The notes beneath the pieces are model-generated. The model was not told where the DNA came from. It worked only from the letters and a program-made list of their open reading frames with translations, and made no database searches. From positions 1,240,001 through 1,304,000 of the forward strand of contig NC_018632.1 of assembly GCF_000172635.2 (NCBI RefSeq): 64,000 bases of DNA. Reading direction: 5' to 3'. Positions 44,443 through 61,982 of this stretch are shown here, one piece after another. Positions within the stretch are counted from its first letter, which is position 1. The number at the start of each line of letters is the position of its first letter. The translations under genes and the position numbers were made by a program. The DNA is from Alteromonas macleodii ATCC 27126 (GTDB lineage: Bacteria > Pseudomonadota > Gammaproteobacteria > Enterobacterales > Alteromonadaceae).

Positions 44443-45081
44443 ATGAACCAAAAGTTCAAAAAATTGGTTGTTTTTTTATCAACTCTCATCGTTCTTTTTC
44501 CGCTGTTTATCGCTGGGTGTGCAACTACGCCTCCTAAAGACATCAGTAATTTGTGCGAAATATTCTACGAAAAGGACGATTGGTATGATGCAGCTGCTGA
44601 TGCCCGCGATAAATGGGGTGTGCCTATACATGTTCCAATGGCCATGATGTATCAAGAAAGTTCCTTCCGCCACGATGCGCTTCCACCGCGTGATTACGTT
44701 TTCTTCGGGCTTATTCCTTGGGGGCGTGTTAGTTCGGCTTATGGCTATTCACAAGCGAAAACACCTACCTGGTCTGACTATATGAGAGAAACAGATAACA
44801 GTGGTGCGGATCGTGATGATTTCGAGGACGCTATCGACTTTATGGGATGGTTTATTTACAAGTCGCAAAAAGTGAACGGTATTTCTAAATGGGATGCCTA
44901 CGCGCAATACCTTAACTATCACGAAGGATGGGGCGGGTACAAACGCAGAAGCTATGATAGAAAGCCGTGGCTGAAGAAAGTGGCGTCAAAAGTTAAAGCG
45001 CGCTCGCTGCGCTATGCTACGCAACTTAAAACCTGCGAGGAAGATCTTCAAAAAGGTTGGTTTATGAAGCTGTTTAGCTAA
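44443..45081 (+). CDS. Lipoprotein with lytic-transglycosylase-like (SLT) domain
   Basis: A 212-residue protein with a lipoprotein signal peptide ending at Cys26 (LFIAGC). The lysozyme-like fold follows: a putative catalytic Glu in MAMMYQESSFRHDA near residue 72, SSAYGYSQAKTPTW near 103 (GYSQ in place of the usual GLMQ), and YLNYHEGWGGYKR near 164. It probably cuts or binds peptidoglycan from the outer membrane side. Divergence from the standard GLMQ motif leaves the activity uncertain. A strong terminator follows. Confidence 0.82.
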   Translation: MNQKFKKLVVFLSTLIVLFPLFIAGCATTPPKDISNLCEIFYEKDDWYDAAADARDKWGVPIHVPMAMMYQESSFRHDALPPRDYVFFGLIPWGRVSSAYGYSQAKTPTWSDYMRETDNSGADRDDFEDAIDFMGWFIYKSQKVNGISKWDAYAQYLNYHEGWGGYKRRSYDRKPWLKKVASKVKARSLRYATQLKTCEEDLQKGWFMKLFS

Positions 45082-45095
45082 ATTAAAGAAGCGAG

Positions 45096-45123
45096 AAAAA
45101 GCGACGTGATAGTCGCTTTTTTT
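45096..45123 (+). terminator. Rho-independent terminator after the SLT lipoprotein gene
   Basis: AGCGAC (45100-45105), loop GTGATA, GTCGCT (45112-45117), then seven T bases, preceded by A-tract complement. Confidence 0.85.
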
Positions 45124-45170: not shown

Positions 45171-45250
45171 AAAAAAATTGAGGGATAGACGGGCGTCTAT
45201 CCCTCAGCGACGCTAAGCCAAGACCGTTTTTTACCCAACGTCGAACAGGC
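45171..45250 (-). ncRNA. Predicted Fur-regulated small RNA (about 80 nt) with intrinsic terminator
   Basis: No protein frame explains this stretch. On the minus strand a sigma70-like promoter (45285-45257) would start RNA near 45250. It would end in a 12-bp stem GAGGGATAGAC/GTCTATCCCTC (45180-45205, loop of four) followed by AATTTTTTT. Between them lies an A-rich single strand (GGGUAAAAAACGG) of the type bound by Hfq. ACGGUCU (nt 24-30) is complementary to AGACCGU between the Shine-Dalgarno and start codon of sodB in this window (56597-56591). By size, Fur box and target it resembles RyhB in role, though sequence similarity is slight. Prediction only. Confidence 0.6.
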
Positions 45251-45256
45251 ATTTAC

Positions 45257-45285
45257 AAGATAGTGTAAATGAGAATGATTTGCAA
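45257..45285 (-). promoter_or_regulatory. Fur box overlapping the small RNA promoter
   Basis: Minus-strand -35 TTGCAA (45285-45280) and -10 TATCTT (45262-45257) are 17 bases apart. The plus-strand TGAGAATGATTTGCA (45270-45284) matches the Fur heptamer pair TGATAAT-N-ATTATCA at 11 of 14 positions and covers the spacer and -35, so iron-loaded Fur should block the promoter. Confidence 0.65.
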
Positions 45286-45374
45286 TACCTTTTTGTAAAT
45301 TAATTCTATCCCTAAATATGCAACAAATTTATCTGGCCCTGATCTTGTTCTATACTTTTCAAGTGGAGGAACGT

Positions 45375-45833
45375 ATGGATATAGACAAGTTTAGTGCGCA
45401 TGGAGAGGTTCACGCTCATTTTCAAGCAGAGCAAAATATTCTACATATAGACTTAGTAGGTCCGTTTAATCTTGAGTTCATGCAAAAGTATGAGCGTGTG
45501 GTTGGCGCACAAAGAAAGAATATTGATACACCGTGTTGGGGAAGCTTAGTAAATGTGCATGGTCTGGCACTTGCGCCCATGGAGGCTACTAACGCTGGGC
45601 AAGAAATTGTTAGTAAAGCCGTAGCATTGGGGCTAATTGCCACGGCAGTGGTGCTTCATGAACCAGAAGGTGTGGCAATGCAAAAGAAGTTTTGGTCTCG
45701 TGTTTATGAATCTTCAACACTAGCATTCGAATACTTTGACGACACTGCTCAGGCAACACTGTGGTTGAGTGAAAAAGTACTTGCTTGTCTGCAGGCCCAC
45801 AATGTTAATCAGTTCAATAATGCCAGACGATAG
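45375..45833 (+). CDS. Small STAS/SpoIIAA-like protein
   Basis: 152 residues from the ATG at 45375, chosen because GGAGGA lies just upstream; the longer frame from 45318 has no ribosome site. The pattern of alternating beta strands and helices (LHIDLVGPFNLEFMQKYERVV, in part; WGSLVNVHGLALAPM; TAVVLHEP; LAFEYFDDTAQATLWLSEKV) resembles SpoIIAA-like/STAS-type domains, which act in regulation or lipid binding. The family call is by inspection only. A shorter similar protein is encoded 98 bases downstream. TATACT at 45351 may be its -10 box. Confidence 0.68.
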   Translation: MDIDKFSAHGEVHAHFQAEQNILHIDLVGPFNLEFMQKYERVVGAQRKNIDTPCWGSLVNVHGLALAPMEATNAGQEIVSKAVALGLIATAVVLHEPEGVAMQKKFWSRVYESSTLAFEYFDDTAQATLWLSEKVLACLQAHNVNQFNNARR

Positions 45834-56007: not shown

Positions 56008-56589
56008 TTATGCAAAGTTGCTGCTTGCGAATTCCCAGTTAACCAGCGCCCAGAAATTTTCTAGGTACTTAGGACGCGCATTGCGGTAGTCGATGTAGTA
56101 AGCGTGTTCCCAAAGGTCAACAGTAAGCACTGGCGTAAGGTCGTCGCCAGAAATAGGCGTTTGCGCGTTGCTTGTGTTAACGATATCTAGGCTGCCGTCT
56201 GCAGTTTTAACTAACCACGTCCAGCTTGAACCGAAGTTGTTAACCGCTTTATCGTTAAATGCTGCTTGGAAGTCTGCAAATGAGCCCCATTTCGCGTTGA
56301 TAGCTTCTGCTAGCGCGCCTGTTGGCTCACCGCCGCCGTTCGGGCTTAGACAGTGCCAGTAGAACGTGTGGTTCCATACCTGCGCTGCGTTATTGAAAAC
56401 ACCGCCGTCAGAAGATTTGATGATTTCTTCTAGGCTTTTGTTTTCCATGTCAGTACCTTCAACTAGGCCGTTAAGCTTAGTTACATAAGTAGCGTGGTGC
56501 TTGCCATAGTGGTACTCAAGCGTTTCAGCAGAAATATGCGGTTCTAGTGCATTTTGTTCGTATGGTAATGCTGGTAATTCAAAAGCCAT
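56008..56589 (-). CDS. sodB: Iron superoxide dismutase
   Basis: Converts superoxide to peroxide and oxygen. 193 residues from the ATG at 56589, the E. coli SodB length; GGAG lies eight bases upstream. Metal ligands fit [13 protein letters not shown] (His near 27), [11 protein letters not shown] (His near 74) and [11 protein letters not shown] (Asp and His near 157-161). [10 protein letters not shown] and GSSWTWLVK support the Fe type. The region between ribosome site and start (AGACCGU) is complementary to the predicted small RNA at 45171-45250, and in E. coli sodB is a RyhB target. Confidence 0.97.
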
Positions 56590-56938
56590 GACGGTCTCCA
56601 TGTTGGTTTAGTATTGTAGTCTAAAGCCCACTTATCTTCGCCTGTTCAATAAGTGCATATTAATTCTATGTTCAATATACTGCTTTAGACGCTAAAGCAT
56701 ATCCCAAATGTGGGGATAAAGTCCTATAACTCAATGACAAAAATGTGAATTTTTTTTCAAAAGTTAAAATGTGACACTAATTTGTATTGCAATGTATGGG
56801 TAGATAACGATCCAGAGGTTGAAAAGATCAATTCAGCTATGAGTAATTAAACATAAAATTATGATACCCTTTCCCTTGATAAATCATTCATGCATTCCCA
56901 TCTAACTGGGAATACACTTTTGTGCTCAGAGGAATCAA
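56590..56938. promoter_or_regulatory. 349-base divergent region between sodB and grxD with repeats
   Basis: Holds two direct repeats TGTTCAATA (56643-56651, 56669-56677), 26 bases apart, a near-palindrome TGCTTTA-GACGC-TAAAGCA (56681-56699) and TATCCC/GGGATA (56700-56718), all 50-130 bases before sodB. On the minus strand TACAAT just before the sodB leader could be its -10. Near grxD, ATTCCC/GGGAAT (56894-56913) is a short stem. No gene seen. Confidence 0.45.
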
Positions 56939-57622: not shown

Positions 57623-60210
57623 ATGAATACAACCTTGTCTTTATTGACCAAAAACGTGCGTGGCGTATTAGCCGCATCAGCTGCGTTTTCAGTAATGGCC
57701 GCTGCACCTGTTTATGCGCAAGAAGCTGAAGAGAGTGCTAAGGCCGAAGATTTTGAACAAATTGCGGTAGTTGGTTCACGTGCAGCGCCTCGCTCGGTCG
57801 CTGACTCAGCGGTGCCAATTGATATTATTTCTGACGAAGAGTTTAAGCAGCAGGGTGCCACTGATATGGTATCTATGATGCAGACTGTTGTTCCGTCTTT
57901 TAACGTAAACGACCAGCCGATCAACGATGCTTCAACGCTTGTTCGTCCTGCTAACCTTCGCGGTATGGCATCAGACCACACGCTTGTGCTTGTAAATGGT
58001 AAACGTCGTCACCGTTCTGCGGTTATCACTTTCCTTGGTGGTGGTCTTTCTGACGGTGCACAAGGTCCTGATATTTCTGTTATCCCAGCAGCGGCATTAA
58101 AGCAGGTGGAAGTACTTCGTGATGGTGCAGCAGCACAATACGGTTCTGATGCGATTGCGGGTGTAATTAACTTCGTACTTAACGATGCATCAGAAGGTGG
58201 TTCGTTTGAAGCCCGTTACGGCTCTTTCTACGAAGGCGACGGCGACATGATTCAGATGTCGGGTAACGTAGGTCTTCCTCTATCTGATAAAGGCTTTATT
58301 AACCTTTCAGCTGAATACCGTACTGCAGATGACACATCTCGAAGTGTACAGCGTGCCGACGCTGCTGCATTGATAGCGGCAGGGAACACCTTTGTAGCAG
58401 ATCCTGCGCAAATTTGGGGTTCACCTGAAATCAAACACGACATCAAACTTTTCGCTAATGCAGGTATAGAGCTTTCTGCTACCTCAGAAGCTTATATGTT
58501 TGGTAACTACGCCGAGCGTGAGGTTGAAGGTGGTTTCTACTTCCGTAACCCACACAATCGTGGTGGTGTGAACGATGGTGGTACAAATGAAGATGGCGAG
58601 CAACTACTGCTTGTTGGTGATTTAACCGGTGATATGTCAGGTAACTGTCCAACCGACATCGTAGTTGGTGATAACGTACTAGAGAACCCGCGTTATATTA
58701 ACGAAGTTCAGAACAACCCTGACTGTTGGGCGTTCAACGAAATGCTGCCAGGTGGTTTCACGCCTCGTTTCGGTGGTACGGTTACAGATATGTCGCTTGT
58801 CTTTGGTACGAAAGGCGAACTTGACCACGATATTACTTATGACGTGAGCTTGAACCTTGGCCAAAACGAAGTTGACTTTGCTATTAGCAACACCATCAAC
58901 CCGTCTTTAGGTCCAGAAACACCTACAGAATTTAGCCCAGGTCGCTATACGCAGTCTGAGCAAACCCTTGATATTGATTTCACTAAGCCGTTCGATGTTG
59001 GTTTATATGAACCACTATTCGTGGCAACTGGATTCCAATATCGCAACGAAAGTTATGAGAGCTTTGCAGGTGATACTGCCTCTTATGAAATAGGTCCGCT
59101 GGCGACACAAGGCTTTGGCATTGGCTCAAATGGTTTCCCTGGCTTGGCGGCCAATAGCCAAGGTCGTGTGTCCCGCAACAACATCGCACTGTACATTGAC
59201 GCAGAAGCGTATATCACTGAAAACTTCATGTTAGCCGGTGCGCTACGTTATGAAGACTTCTCTGATTTCGGTGACACAACGAAAGGTAAGATTGCTTTCC
59301 GTTGGCAAGCACTTGAGAACATCGCTTTCCGTGGTGCGTTCTCAACAGGCTTTAAAGCACCTACCTTGGTCAAAGCAACGTGCGTAACGTAACTACCGCG
59401 TTTGGTACAGGTGGTGAACTTATTGACCGTGCAACACTGCCTCCGACAGATCCAGTGTCTCAACTTAAAGGTGGTGAGCAGTTAACGCCTGAAGAGTCAG
59501 AAAGTATCACGTTTGGTGTGGTAGCCGATTTCGATAATGGTCTATTCATTACCGCAGACTACTACAACATTGAACTGACTGACCGTATCAGTACTGCCTC
59601 TGGTATTGCGCTGACTGAAGAAGACATTGCCACGCTGCTTGAGCAAGGTATCAACGATGCGTCTAGCTTCTCTGAAATCAGCTTCTTCACTAACGACTTC
59701 GACACCACCACCGAAGGTGTAGACGTAGTAGCGAACTATTCGATGGATATGATGGGCGGTGAAACTAAGTTCTCACTTGCATATAACTGGACGTCGACAG
59801 AAGTTGACCGCGCGTCGGATAATATCTCTGATTTCCGTATTCGCATGCTAGAAGATAACCTTCCAGCGGTACGTTACAGTGCAACAGCTAACCACACTAA
59901 TGGCGACTGGCGCTTCCTTGCGAGAATGAACTACTACGGTAGCATCTTCGAAGATCACCTAGACTCTGCATTGCCGATTGACAAAGTAGGTTCTGAAATT
60001 ACGTTCGACTTTGAAGTGGCATATAACTTCACTGAAGAGTTCACGGTAACTGTTGGTGCTAAGAACGCGTTTGATGAATACCCTGACGAAAACAACACTG
60101 ATGCAGGTGGTATCACCTACGCACAGATTGCAGGTTCAGCGTATCCGACAACATCACCAATTGGTATAAACGGTGGCTTCTACTACCTAAGAGGTGTTTA
60201 CACTTTTTAA
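57623..60210 (+). pseudogene. TonB-dependent receptor broken by a one-base frameshift
   Basis: Frame 57623-59392 (signal peptide GVLAASAAFSVMAAAPVYAQ, plug domain, first part of the barrel) ends out of frame after FSTGFKAPTL. The rest of the barrel continues in the frame of 59380-60210 to a terminal aromatic residue (YYLRGVYTF). Restoring one G in the GG at 59368-59369 gives a single protein of about 862 residues with the join ...TLGQSNVRNVTTAFGTGG. The plug has VVGSRAAPRSVADSAVPID and GKRRHRSAVITFLGGGLSDG, close to the second receptor downstream. No STN domain. Either a true inactivating mutation or a sequencing error. Ligand unknown. Confidence 0.85.
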
Positions 60211-60260
60211 TAGGTAAGCAATTACCTATAAACCAAACTTTCACTTAATGTTTCAAAGTT

Positions 60261-60287
60261 AAGGGGGCATTAGCCCCCTTTTATTTT
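60261..60287 (+). terminator. Rho-independent terminator after the first TonB receptor
   Basis: AAGGGGGC (60261-60268), loop ATTA, GCCCCCTT (60273-60280), TTATTTT. It separates the receptor from the sigma-factor gene that starts a few bases later. Confidence 0.85.
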
Positions 60288-60292
60288 ATTAG

Positions 60293-60925
60293 GTGAAAAA
60301 GAACGAAAAAGCAGGCATTATTGATGCCAATGTAAGCAAATCGAAACACACAACATTTAATATTATGACGAGAAAGTCGACAGTAGCTGAAACCTTTTTA
60401 AAATACCGCTCAAAGCTAATGCGCGCGGTAGGTTCTATTGTTGGCGCCGACGACATTGAAGACATCGTGCAAGAAGCTTTTATTAAAAGCTACGAAGCAG
60501 AGTTAAAACAAGAAATACAGTATGAGCGTACCTATATGCTCAAGACAGCGCGTAATCTAGCGCTGAACCATGTTGCGAAAGCTGAAAACAAAAATAAGCA
60601 GCAGCTCGATGACATGGATATTTTGCCTTATGAGCTTGTAGGGCACAGTTTAGAAAAAAATGTAGAAAGCAAAGAGCGTTTTATTCATTTTTGCCGAGCG
60701 ACAGATACACTGTCTGCTGATGTAAAACGCGTATTTTTGCTGAAAAAAGTATATGGCATGCGACAAAAAGAGATTGCAGAGCTTGTGGGGCTAAGCGAAA
60801 GCACCGTTGAGAAGCATGTCGCCAAAGGTTTAATGATGTGCTCTAGGTACTTAGCCGAGCTGTCAAAGGACAGTGCATCCCCCCGTGCCACTGCTAACGC
60901 GACTCAGGACATAAGCCGTAGTTAA
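60293..60925 (+). CDS. ECF RNA polymerase sigma factor (FecI-like)
   Basis: 210 residues from GTG at 60293. ATG at 60365 gives 186 residues and fits the usual family start (STVAETFLKYRSKLMRAV), but neither has a clear ribosome site. Sigma region 2 contains DIEDIVQEAFIKSYEAE and YMLKTARNLALNHV; region 4 contains FLLKKVYGMRQKEIAELVGLSESTVEKHVAKGL (in part). Next to fecR and an STN-containing receptor, it should be an iron- or substrate-starvation sigma factor released by cell-surface signalling. The GTG is six bases after a terminator, so its own promoter or read-through is needed. Confidence 0.9.
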   Translation: MKKNEKAGIIDANVSKSKHTTFNIMTRKSTVAETFLKYRSKLMRAVGSIVGADDIEDIVQEAFIKSYEAELKQEIQYERTYMLKTARNLALNHVAKAENKNKQQLDDMDILPYELVGHSLEKNVESKERFIHFCRATDTLSADVKRVFLLKKVYGMRQKEIAELVGLSESTVEKHVAKGLMMCSRYLAELSKDSASPRATANATQDISRS

Positions 60926-60926
60926 C

Positions 60927-61982
60927 ATGAATAATATTCGCCAGTTTTCAAGCAAAGAAGATATCCAAGAGCAAGCATGCTTATGGATAAGCCGTCTCGA
61001 TCGCGGCTTAAACAGTGACGAAAAGACGGAGCTAGATGCTTGGTTGTCGGAAAGTAATGCGCATCGTCAAGCTTTGCTCGACGCCGCTAGCTTGTGGGAC
61101 GACATGTCGGTATTAAATGAATTGAGCGGTTTATTCCCGCAGCCTACCTCACGTCAGTCGTCGAAAAAACGCAATATGCCTAAAACAGCGGTTTGGGGCA
61201 TTGCGGCCACATTTTTAGTGATGGCAATTGCTGTTGGGGTAGTGGTTCAGCGCACGTGGCTAAATAGCACCCCTGAATTCGCAGCGGTAACACAAAAGGT
61301 ACAAACCGGTGTTGGCGAACAGAAAAACGTGACGCTAGCCGATGGCTCTAAACTTCATCTAAATACAAACTCTGTCGTTACCGTAGACTTCTCATCAACG
61401 GCGCGCAATATCGTTTTATTGAAAGGGGAGGCACACTTTGAAGTGGCTCACGACACGTCTCGCCCGTTCTCTGTAACTGCAGGCAACAACACCGTTACCG
61501 CTGTTGGAACTGCTTTTAATATGCAATATGTGGATGATAATGCGTTTGAGTTAGTGGTGACCGACGGAAAGGTATTGGTGAAAGATCGCTTTAAGGCTTC
61601 ATCCTCAAATGAGTCGCTCTTCACGAAACGTCCTGTTGCTGAAGAAGGACTTCTCATGTTCGCAGGTGAAAAAGCAACAGTGCAAGGTAAAGTGGAAGCC
61701 CGTGAAAGCATGTCTCAAAATGACATTGACGACGATTTAGCGTGGCAACAAGGTATGATTGTATTTAAAGGTGAACCGCTAGAGGCCGTATTAGCTGAGA
61801 TTGGGCGCTATACACCCGTTCGCTTTAACATTTCGGATGAAAGTCTGCGCAAGCGACGTGTAGCGGGCTACTTTAAGGTAGGCGATATAGACGGTCTGTT
61901 GTCAGCACTTAAGAGCAGCTTTAATATCAATTACGAGAAAGTCACAGAAACAAGTATTGAGCTTAAGCTAGCGAAAAGTTAA
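60927..61982 (+). CDS. FecR-family anti-sigma / sigma regulator protein
   Basis: 351 residues beginning one base after the sigma gene stop, so coupled. A cytoplasmic N-terminal DUF4880-like domain (ACLWISRLDRGLNSDEKTELDAWL, in part) at residues 15-60 is followed by one membrane helix (TAVWGIAATFLVMAIAVGVVV, about 88-108). The periplasmic FecR domain (TGVGEQKNVTLADGSKLHLNT, in part; VLLKGEAHFEVAHD) is at about 125-220, and the C-terminal STN-like region near 280-345 (FKGEPLEAVLAEIGRYTPV). It transmits the signal from the outer-membrane receptor to the sigma factor. Confidence 0.92.
   Translation: MNNIRQFSSKEDIQEQACLWISRLDRGLNSDEKTELDAWLSESNAHRQALLDAASLWDDMSVLNELSGLFPQPTSRQSSKKRNMPKTAVWGIAATFLVMAIAVGVVVQRTWLNSTPEFAAVTQKVQTGVGEQKNVTLADGSKLHLNTNSVVTVDFSSTARNIVLLKGEAHFEVAHDTSRPFSVTAGNNTVTAVGTAFNMQYVDDNAFELVVTDGKVLVKDRFKASSSNESLFTKRPVAEEGLLMFAGEKATVQGKVEARESMSQNDIDDDLAWQQGMIVFKGEPLEAVLAEIGRYTPVRFNISDESLRKRRVAGYFKVGDIDGLLSALKSSFNINYEKVTETSIELKLAKS

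Follow-up and report, generated by a model that had tools for sequence, protein, structure and literature searches.

The intergenic stretch considered here lies on the minus strand of a 64-kb window of the Alteromonas macleodii ATCC 27126 chromosome, the window being the whole stretch of DNA analysed (64,000 nucleotides). An earlier note, made from the letters alone, had pointed to a promoter overlapped by a Fur box, to a short region with no reading frame and to a hairpin, and had read this succession as a stand-alone iron-responsive small RNA (sRNA), possibly an analogue of RyhB. The locus thus raises the question of whether these parts belong to a genuine regulatory RNA and, if so, on which mRNAs such an RNA would act. 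Here, comparisons across the genus point with high confidence to a Fur-repressed, trans-acting sRNA that would execute an iron-sparing response in Alteromonas, with its 5' tail as the main seed. Taken separately and judged from sequence, the RNA and its control by Fur are close to certain, and it is very likely that the RNA spares iron by way of sdhC.

The minus strand carries, in this order, a promoter with an overlapping Fur box, an RNA of about 80 nt and a 12-bp terminator hairpin (Table 1). The promoter has the 17-base spacing first described, and its 8 of 12 consensus bases left it out of the list produced by the mechanical scan, the threshold of which was 9. A TANNNT hexamer ending 6-7 bases upstream of GCCTGTT was found in 46/46 aligned homologues. 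The terminator stem is made of TGAGGGATAGAC and GTCTATCCCTCA around a GCCC loop, with the T run next to it. On the other side of the promoter, the ORF listed at 45318-45833 (+) probably starts at 45375 (ATGGATATAGAC behind GGAGGAACGT) rather than at 45318, and the longer form of this ORF had no match in Pfam.

Table 1. Positions in the window of the sRNA, its promoter elements and its predicted contacts at sodB
Feature	Position	Strand	Basis
-35 element TTGCAA	45280..45285	-	Sequence
Fur box TGCAAATCATTCTCA (11/14), between -35 and -10	45270..45284	-	15-mer match to TGATAATnATTATCA
-10 element TATCTT	45257..45262	-	Sequence; 17-base spacer from -35
Predicted small RNA, about 80 nt	45171..45253	-	Start at about 45252, placed from the distance to -10
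5' single-stranded tail GCCUGUU, proposed main seed	45244..45250	-	Invariant, unpaired in fold
Stem 1 (11 pairs) and loop	45208..45243	-	Fold and covariation
Loop ACGGUCUUGG, possible second seed	45227-45218	-	Within stem 1 hairpin
Rho-independent terminator, 12-pair stem and U tract	45171..45206	-	Fold, covariation
sodB, Fe superoxide dismutase, predicted target	56008..56589	-	NCBIfam PRK10543 above cut-off; start 56589
AGACCGT beside sodB Shine-Dalgarno, would pair with sRNA loop	56591..56597	-	Part of genus only
Predicted sodB leader hairpin, with GAACAGGC (56647-56640) in its loop, would pair with sRNA tail	56626..56656	-	Fold

A Fur box in one sequence is weak evidence, whereas conservation of the box provides strong evidence. 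When scored against the 15-base Fur consensus, a match of 11/14 occurs at three places in the 64-kb window and was reached by 13 of 5000 random 50-base stretches of it. The 15-base form was used, the 19-base form not being discriminating in a single sequence: with 14/19 by the latter, the box is not unusual in a window that contains one other 14 and sixteen 13s. Among 65 homologous upstream regions (58 of the genus and seven of another genus, g5), the box scored at least 11/14 in 63 and 10 in the remaining two, and six regions had a perfect 14/14 match (TGATAATAATTATCA). Since the RNA models were built without the promoter, conservation of the promoter and its box is an independent check, and the putative Fur operator on the sRNA promoter is conserved across homologues. 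In two loci (L038 and L040), the box stands in reverse orientation between otherwise similar promoter elements, which is compatible with the same arrangement because the Fur operator is palindromic.

In the predicted fold, the 5' end of the RNA is an unpaired tail, after which come a stem of 11 pairs with its loop and then a 12-pair terminator followed by a U tract. The energy of the whole RNA was -34.2 kcal/mol as compared with a mean of -19.4 for shuffled sequences (z = -5.4). The approximately 55 bases preceding the terminator, which the earlier note had taken as a stretch with no reading frame, are thus occupied by the 11-pair stem-loop rather than being unstructured. Across 41 distinct sequences, 92.8% of the paired cells were maintained (82.5% in shuffles) and 130 cells displayed two-sided changes (43.5 in shuffles), these changes affecting the terminator at 12/12 pairs and stem 1 at 3/11. 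In a larger set of 54 homologues (52 distinct), the number of stem 1 pairs with two-sided changes rose to 6/11, stem 1 cells being paired at 96% in the 41 sequences and 93% in the 54 homologues. The 54-homologue alignment leans towards structure because it was fitted to the model, and the number of its pairs with two-sided changes was not above that of shuffles (260 of 500 reached an equal number). All 41 distinct sequences share the same tail, GCCTGTT, and the same loop core, ACGGTCTT.

Homologues occur in 58 of the 59 genomes of the genus. A blastn search with a 151-base query detected the RNA in 46 of these, and a first covariance model, built without promoter from just the RNA part of the 41 distinct sequences, recovered it in 11 of the 13 genomes that blastn had missed. 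In G017, the homologue came to light through an exact pattern scan, and a second model detected it as well. The pattern scan covered a species-genome collection in which each of 84,980 species is represented by one genome, and the core pattern matched 64 stretches there. Forty-one of these had Fur scores of 12-15/19 and were labelled as Alteromonas, Salinimonas, Marisediminitalea, Aestuariibacter, or bins of the Alteromonadaceae or Gammaproteobacteria; the other 23 came from different taxa, ranging from Pseudomonas to an archaeal bin, with Fur scores of 7-10/19. Across the family, the second model matched 50/395 genomes at E <=0.05, of which 31 were in the genus. Matches beyond the genus with E <1e-8 comprised seven g5 genomes and one g37 genome. 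Eleven weaker matches were also obtained beyond the genus, eight of which were read: four (L351, L352, L355 and L356; two from g10 and two from g5) had a 13/14 Fur box and, together with the stronger match L348, are likely distant homologues. The other four (L353, L354, L357 and L358) had no Fur box above 10/14 and were regarded as chance matches. The conservation of promoter, seed and terminator in relatives, proposed at the outset as a check, thus extends over 58/59 genus genomes and some relatives of other genera. In the remaining genus genome, G002, no RNA was detected by the models or within 75.8 kb around sodB, and one reading is that it was lost or is very divergent there. This genome was also found to contain no main acnA orthologue, its best aconitase match being partial and 50% identical.

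These data bear on two simpler explanations of the locus. The box and the hairpin might have arisen by chance, or might be parts of the neighbours, namely the terminator of the gene at 44443-45081 and a Fur operator of the gene starting at 45375. A single 11/14 box is indeed not rare in 64 kb, and genes are close on either side. However, the left gene appears by eye to have its own hairpin and T run at about 45100-45123 (absent from the mechanical list), and the RNA and its Fur box are conserved together. Moreover, a relative of the left gene adjoins the RNA in 45/60 loci and a relative of the right gene (45375-45833) in 12/60; the RNA persists while flanking genes change and therefore behaves as an independent unit. 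This explanation is barely credible. It is also very improbable that the locus encodes a small protein. In this genome, an ATG does open a frame at the start of the RNA, at 45252, which qualifies the claim that the stretch has no reading frame. Yet this ATG is retained in only 25/46 homologues, the spacers separating tail from loop fall in all three frames (22, 15 and 9 homologues), no conserved reading frame was found across the 46 homologues, and both stems covary as RNA. The original proposal of a stand-alone Fur-controlled sRNA is thereby borne out at the level of box, tail, loop and terminator, all conserved, and the predicted product is a short non-coding RNA with an intrinsic terminator.

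As to the mRNAs on which it would act, the predicted RNA is complementary, at conserved sites, to mRNAs that encode iron proteins, and as a putative seed the 5' tail has better support than the loop. Its complement, AACAGGCA, stands 14 bases upstream of the GTG start of sdhC (15 in one case) in 50/50 genomes read, this gene having been selected by protein family and not by seed (59 genomes have the gene; nine were left out). Pairing of the tail (nt 1-12) with sdhC was matched by 0.7% of 300 shuffled leaders. Conservation of this site may be partly ribosomal, because AACAGGCA contains the AGG nearest the start codon; G002 carries the sdhC tail site (L370), though no RNA was found in this genome.

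The gene sodB, also chosen without regard to the tail, ranked 1st of 49 window starts for tail pairing (two of which, 45375 and 56586, had been repositioned), and its pairing was matched by 1.0% of 300 shuffled leaders. The motif AACAGGC, complementary to the seven-base tail, was found in 25/59 sodB leaders and in 12/31 clusters of divergent leaders, these sodB counts leaving out eight second-SOD loci. No other 7-mer is as common in sodB leaders (rank 1 of 1617), and in 24 of the 25 leaders the local hairpin fold left 6 or more of the 7 bases of the motif unpaired, six of the sites being located by eye on the printed folds owing to the presence of an earlier CAGGC. The stems of this leader hairpin vary between clades. 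In acnA leaders, AACAGGC was found just upstream of the Shine-Dalgarno in 20/55 genomes and ACAGGC in 26/55, the four genomes with no main acnA match being left out, and AACAGGC ranked 4 among 7-mers, behind overlapping shifted words. The motif was absent from 34/59 sodB leaders and 35/55 acnA leaders, and the deep branches do not have it. For katG, CGAACAGGCA was found upstream of the start in G021 and G028 among the matches listed; also among the matches listed, this string occurs in G037 and not in the ATCC 27126 genome.

In the ATCC 27126 genome itself, 18 places have AACAGGC upstream of a Shine-Dalgarno and ATG (3 in the control), and 14 have it with a longer gap (2 in the control); the control, the pattern read backwards, is not ideal, and the two sets partly overlap. 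These matches are leads only, many lying inside genes or opening no real gene. Among them are acnA and three genes whose products presumably carry iron cofactors: a GMC oxidoreductase with clustered cysteines, a PuuD-like protein bearing a CVGCH motif, and a FadH-like protein related to Fe-S flavoenzymes. Others have no iron link, for example those encoding an amidase, an aminotransferase or a metallo-hydrolase. Tail pairing at acnA and at the GMC gene was equalled by 0/300 shuffles, a circular result because both genes were found through the AACAGGC search. The same search yielded the puuD, FadH-like and CGKCIEGC-protein candidates, whose pairing was not special (18%, 11% and 27% of shuffles, respectively, pairing as well). 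The CGKCIEGC protein (MCGKCIEGC...; 302 residues) had no match in Pfam or NCBIfam, and its leader contains two tandem AACAGGC sites (G000:C1:3183814-3183888 (+), L239/L252). A seed-plus-start match common to many genomes, GAACAGGCAGCCGC, looks like coding sequence and was discarded.

Other observations concern positions 57623-61982 (+) of the window. A sigma factor-like gene and a FecR-like gene, identified by eye at 60293-61982 (+), rank 2nd and 3rd of the 49 starts for tail pairing (-14.4 and -12.8 kcal/mol), the former with AAAGCAGGCATT in codons 6-9; these genes are possibly a further target. At 57623-60210 (+), a TonB-dependent receptor-like protein, also recognized by eye, is split into overlapping frames (57623-59392 and 59380-60210), for which a frameshift, a sequencing error or a pseudogene are the alternatives.

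The loop may provide a second contact, at sdhC and, in some clades, at sodB. The earlier note had placed its proposed seed here, predicting that ACGGUCU would pair with AGACCGU between the Shine-Dalgarno and the AUG of sodB; the site exists, and this pairing proved to be the weaker part of the note's proposal. The sodB leaders contain AGACCGT in 16/59 cases, AGACCG in 28/59 and AGAC in 53/59, and loop pairing at sodB was matched by 2.7% of shuffled leaders. At sdhC, codons 1-9 (GTGAAAAAGCAAAGACCAGTAAATTTA) were identical in 50/50 genomes, whereas two or more synonyms are used at 28 of the 36 codons that follow. Within this frozen segment, which could be due to another cause, codons 4-6 hold AAGACC, a six-base complement of GGUCUU in the loop. 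Outside the genus, loops of g5, g10 and g37 differ, as illustrated by CUGGUCCUGG in g5.

Two further alternatives retain an sRNA regulated by Fur and differ as to its action. One takes the loop ACGGUCUUGG as the main seed, leaving the tail with only a structural role or a protein contact. It draws on the invariant loop core, on the retention of GGUC(C/U)U among probable homologues from other genera, including some with an altered tail, on AGACCGT at the sodB ribosome site in the window, and on AAGACC at sdhC in all 50 genomes. Energies argue against it: for loop pairing, sodB ranks only 5th of the 49 starts, 14% of shuffles pair as well at sdhC, so that the energy test alone is unsupportive there, and 64% do so at acnA, where the tail has a perfect 10-base site. 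With AGACCG in fewer than half of the sodB leaders as well, we regard a leading role for the loop as unlikely. The other alternative, which we consider less probable still, assigns the RNA a different main job, such as an RNA sponge or an action through protein, the target matches being side effects. The proposed role does rest on sequence, and target sets differ between clades; against this, the complement of the tail tops the words of sodB leaders, comes fourth in acnA and never varies at sdhC. A Fur-repressed sRNA acting mainly through its tail thus remains the preferred reading.

In the model that we infer for transcription, Fur binding, the direction of regulation, the use of Hfq (for which the only relevant feature is the U tract) and pairing at two sites at once, Fe-Fur would occupy the box between -35 and -10 under iron-replete conditions and block transcription. 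At low iron, Fur would depart and the RNA of about 80 nt would be made. Its 5'-terminal tail UGCCUGUU would then pair with AACAGGCA, which iron-enzyme mRNAs carry at the ribosome site or close to it; the predicted targets are sdhCDAB in every genus genome read and, in parts of the genus only, sodB, acnA, katG and some other mRNAs. The tail would either cover the ribosome site, as in sdhC and acnA, or dock on the leader hairpin of sodB; with initiation blocked, translation would stop and mRNA decay would be faster. The loop GGUCUUGG would probably add a contact, with AAGACC in sdhC or, in some clades, with AGACCG at sodB. A more tentative proposal, the chances of which we would put somewhat below even, is that of an independently evolved two-seed family, in which tail and loop grip sdhC simultaneously on both sides of the start codon. 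The need for both contacts would have frozen the sdhC ribosome site and nine codons, and sodB would have kept or rebuilt a leader hairpin of changing stems that displays the partner of the tail in its loop.

RyhB, found in E. coli and its relatives, acts on sdhC and sodB through an internal seed. The Alteromonas RNA resembles it in the Fur box on its promoter, in being a short terminated RNA and in the iron-protein mRNAs predicted as targets, and differs from it by its main seed, proposed at the extreme 5' end, and by having no covariance match to RF00057. With strict filters, a RyhB (RF00057) search gave 0/59 genus genomes above the cut-off and none in the window, the E. coli control being positive; one weak match in G019 was at a different place from the sRNA. 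The designation as a RyhB analogue therefore holds for the kind of regulator, with seed matches at sdhC and partly at sodB, acnA and katG, but not for descent, no RyhB homology being detectable. At a relaxed Rfam threshold, the best weak match at the locus was tfoR, which was set aside at 24.3 bits against a cut-off of 70. Rfam searches on 11 related loci (E up to 0.5) assigned no family to the sRNA, the only element recovered being a cspA thermoregulator near the sRNA in one of them (L043:1482-1851 (+); RF01766, 106.8 bits).

PrrF (Pseudomonas), NrrF (Neisseria), HrrF (Haemophilus), BrrF (Burkholderia) and IsrR (Staphylococcus) are Fur- or iron-controlled sRNAs, and the Alteromonas RNA shares with them the logic of an iron-repressed sRNA. 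NrrF has been reported to repress sdhCDAB, and IsrR is predicted to target mRNAs. The distinction from these five holds in so far as they have Rfam models, no Rfam family having reached its gathering score in the whole 64-kb window. In Alteromonas itself, Aln1a-c of A. macleodii Te101 are CsrB-like sRNAs that act as CsrA sponges and occupy one 404-bp region (PMC5864184). Like the present RNA, they are kept across the genus, and their CsrA-sponge role sets them apart from the Fur-linked RNA. The primary transcriptome of Te101 comprises 127 reported chromosomal sRNAs (PMC5864184), among which the RNA may figure. Among the matches listed in a search of titles and abstract openings, with most subscription journals outside its coverage, no description of a Fur-controlled Alteromonas sRNA was found. 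We conclude that this predicted RNA represents a new sRNA family of the Alteromonadaceae, putatively repressed by Fur and iron-sparing. The kind of regulator is a known one, shared with RyhB, which is under Fur control and has an iron-sparing role (PMC8891985).

Alteromonas is a marine copiotroph, and iron limitation of A. macleodii ATCC 27126 was reported to lower most transcripts of the citric-acid cycle, NADH dehydrogenase, cytochrome bc1 and cytochrome oxidase, together with a rise in nickel superoxide dismutase and fumarase C (PMC7190382). The words 'RyhB' and 'sRNA' are absent from the main text of that report, the passages of which on this transcript loss name no post-transcriptional agent (PMC7190382). 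The pattern fits the proposed role and proves nothing on this RNA, which is a candidate agent for the iron-limited loss of iron-enzyme transcripts. The RNA offers a defined putative seed and defined predicted target sites in a strain called genetically tractable (PMC7190382), and would add a further sRNA with no detectable RyhB homology serving an iron-sparing purpose.
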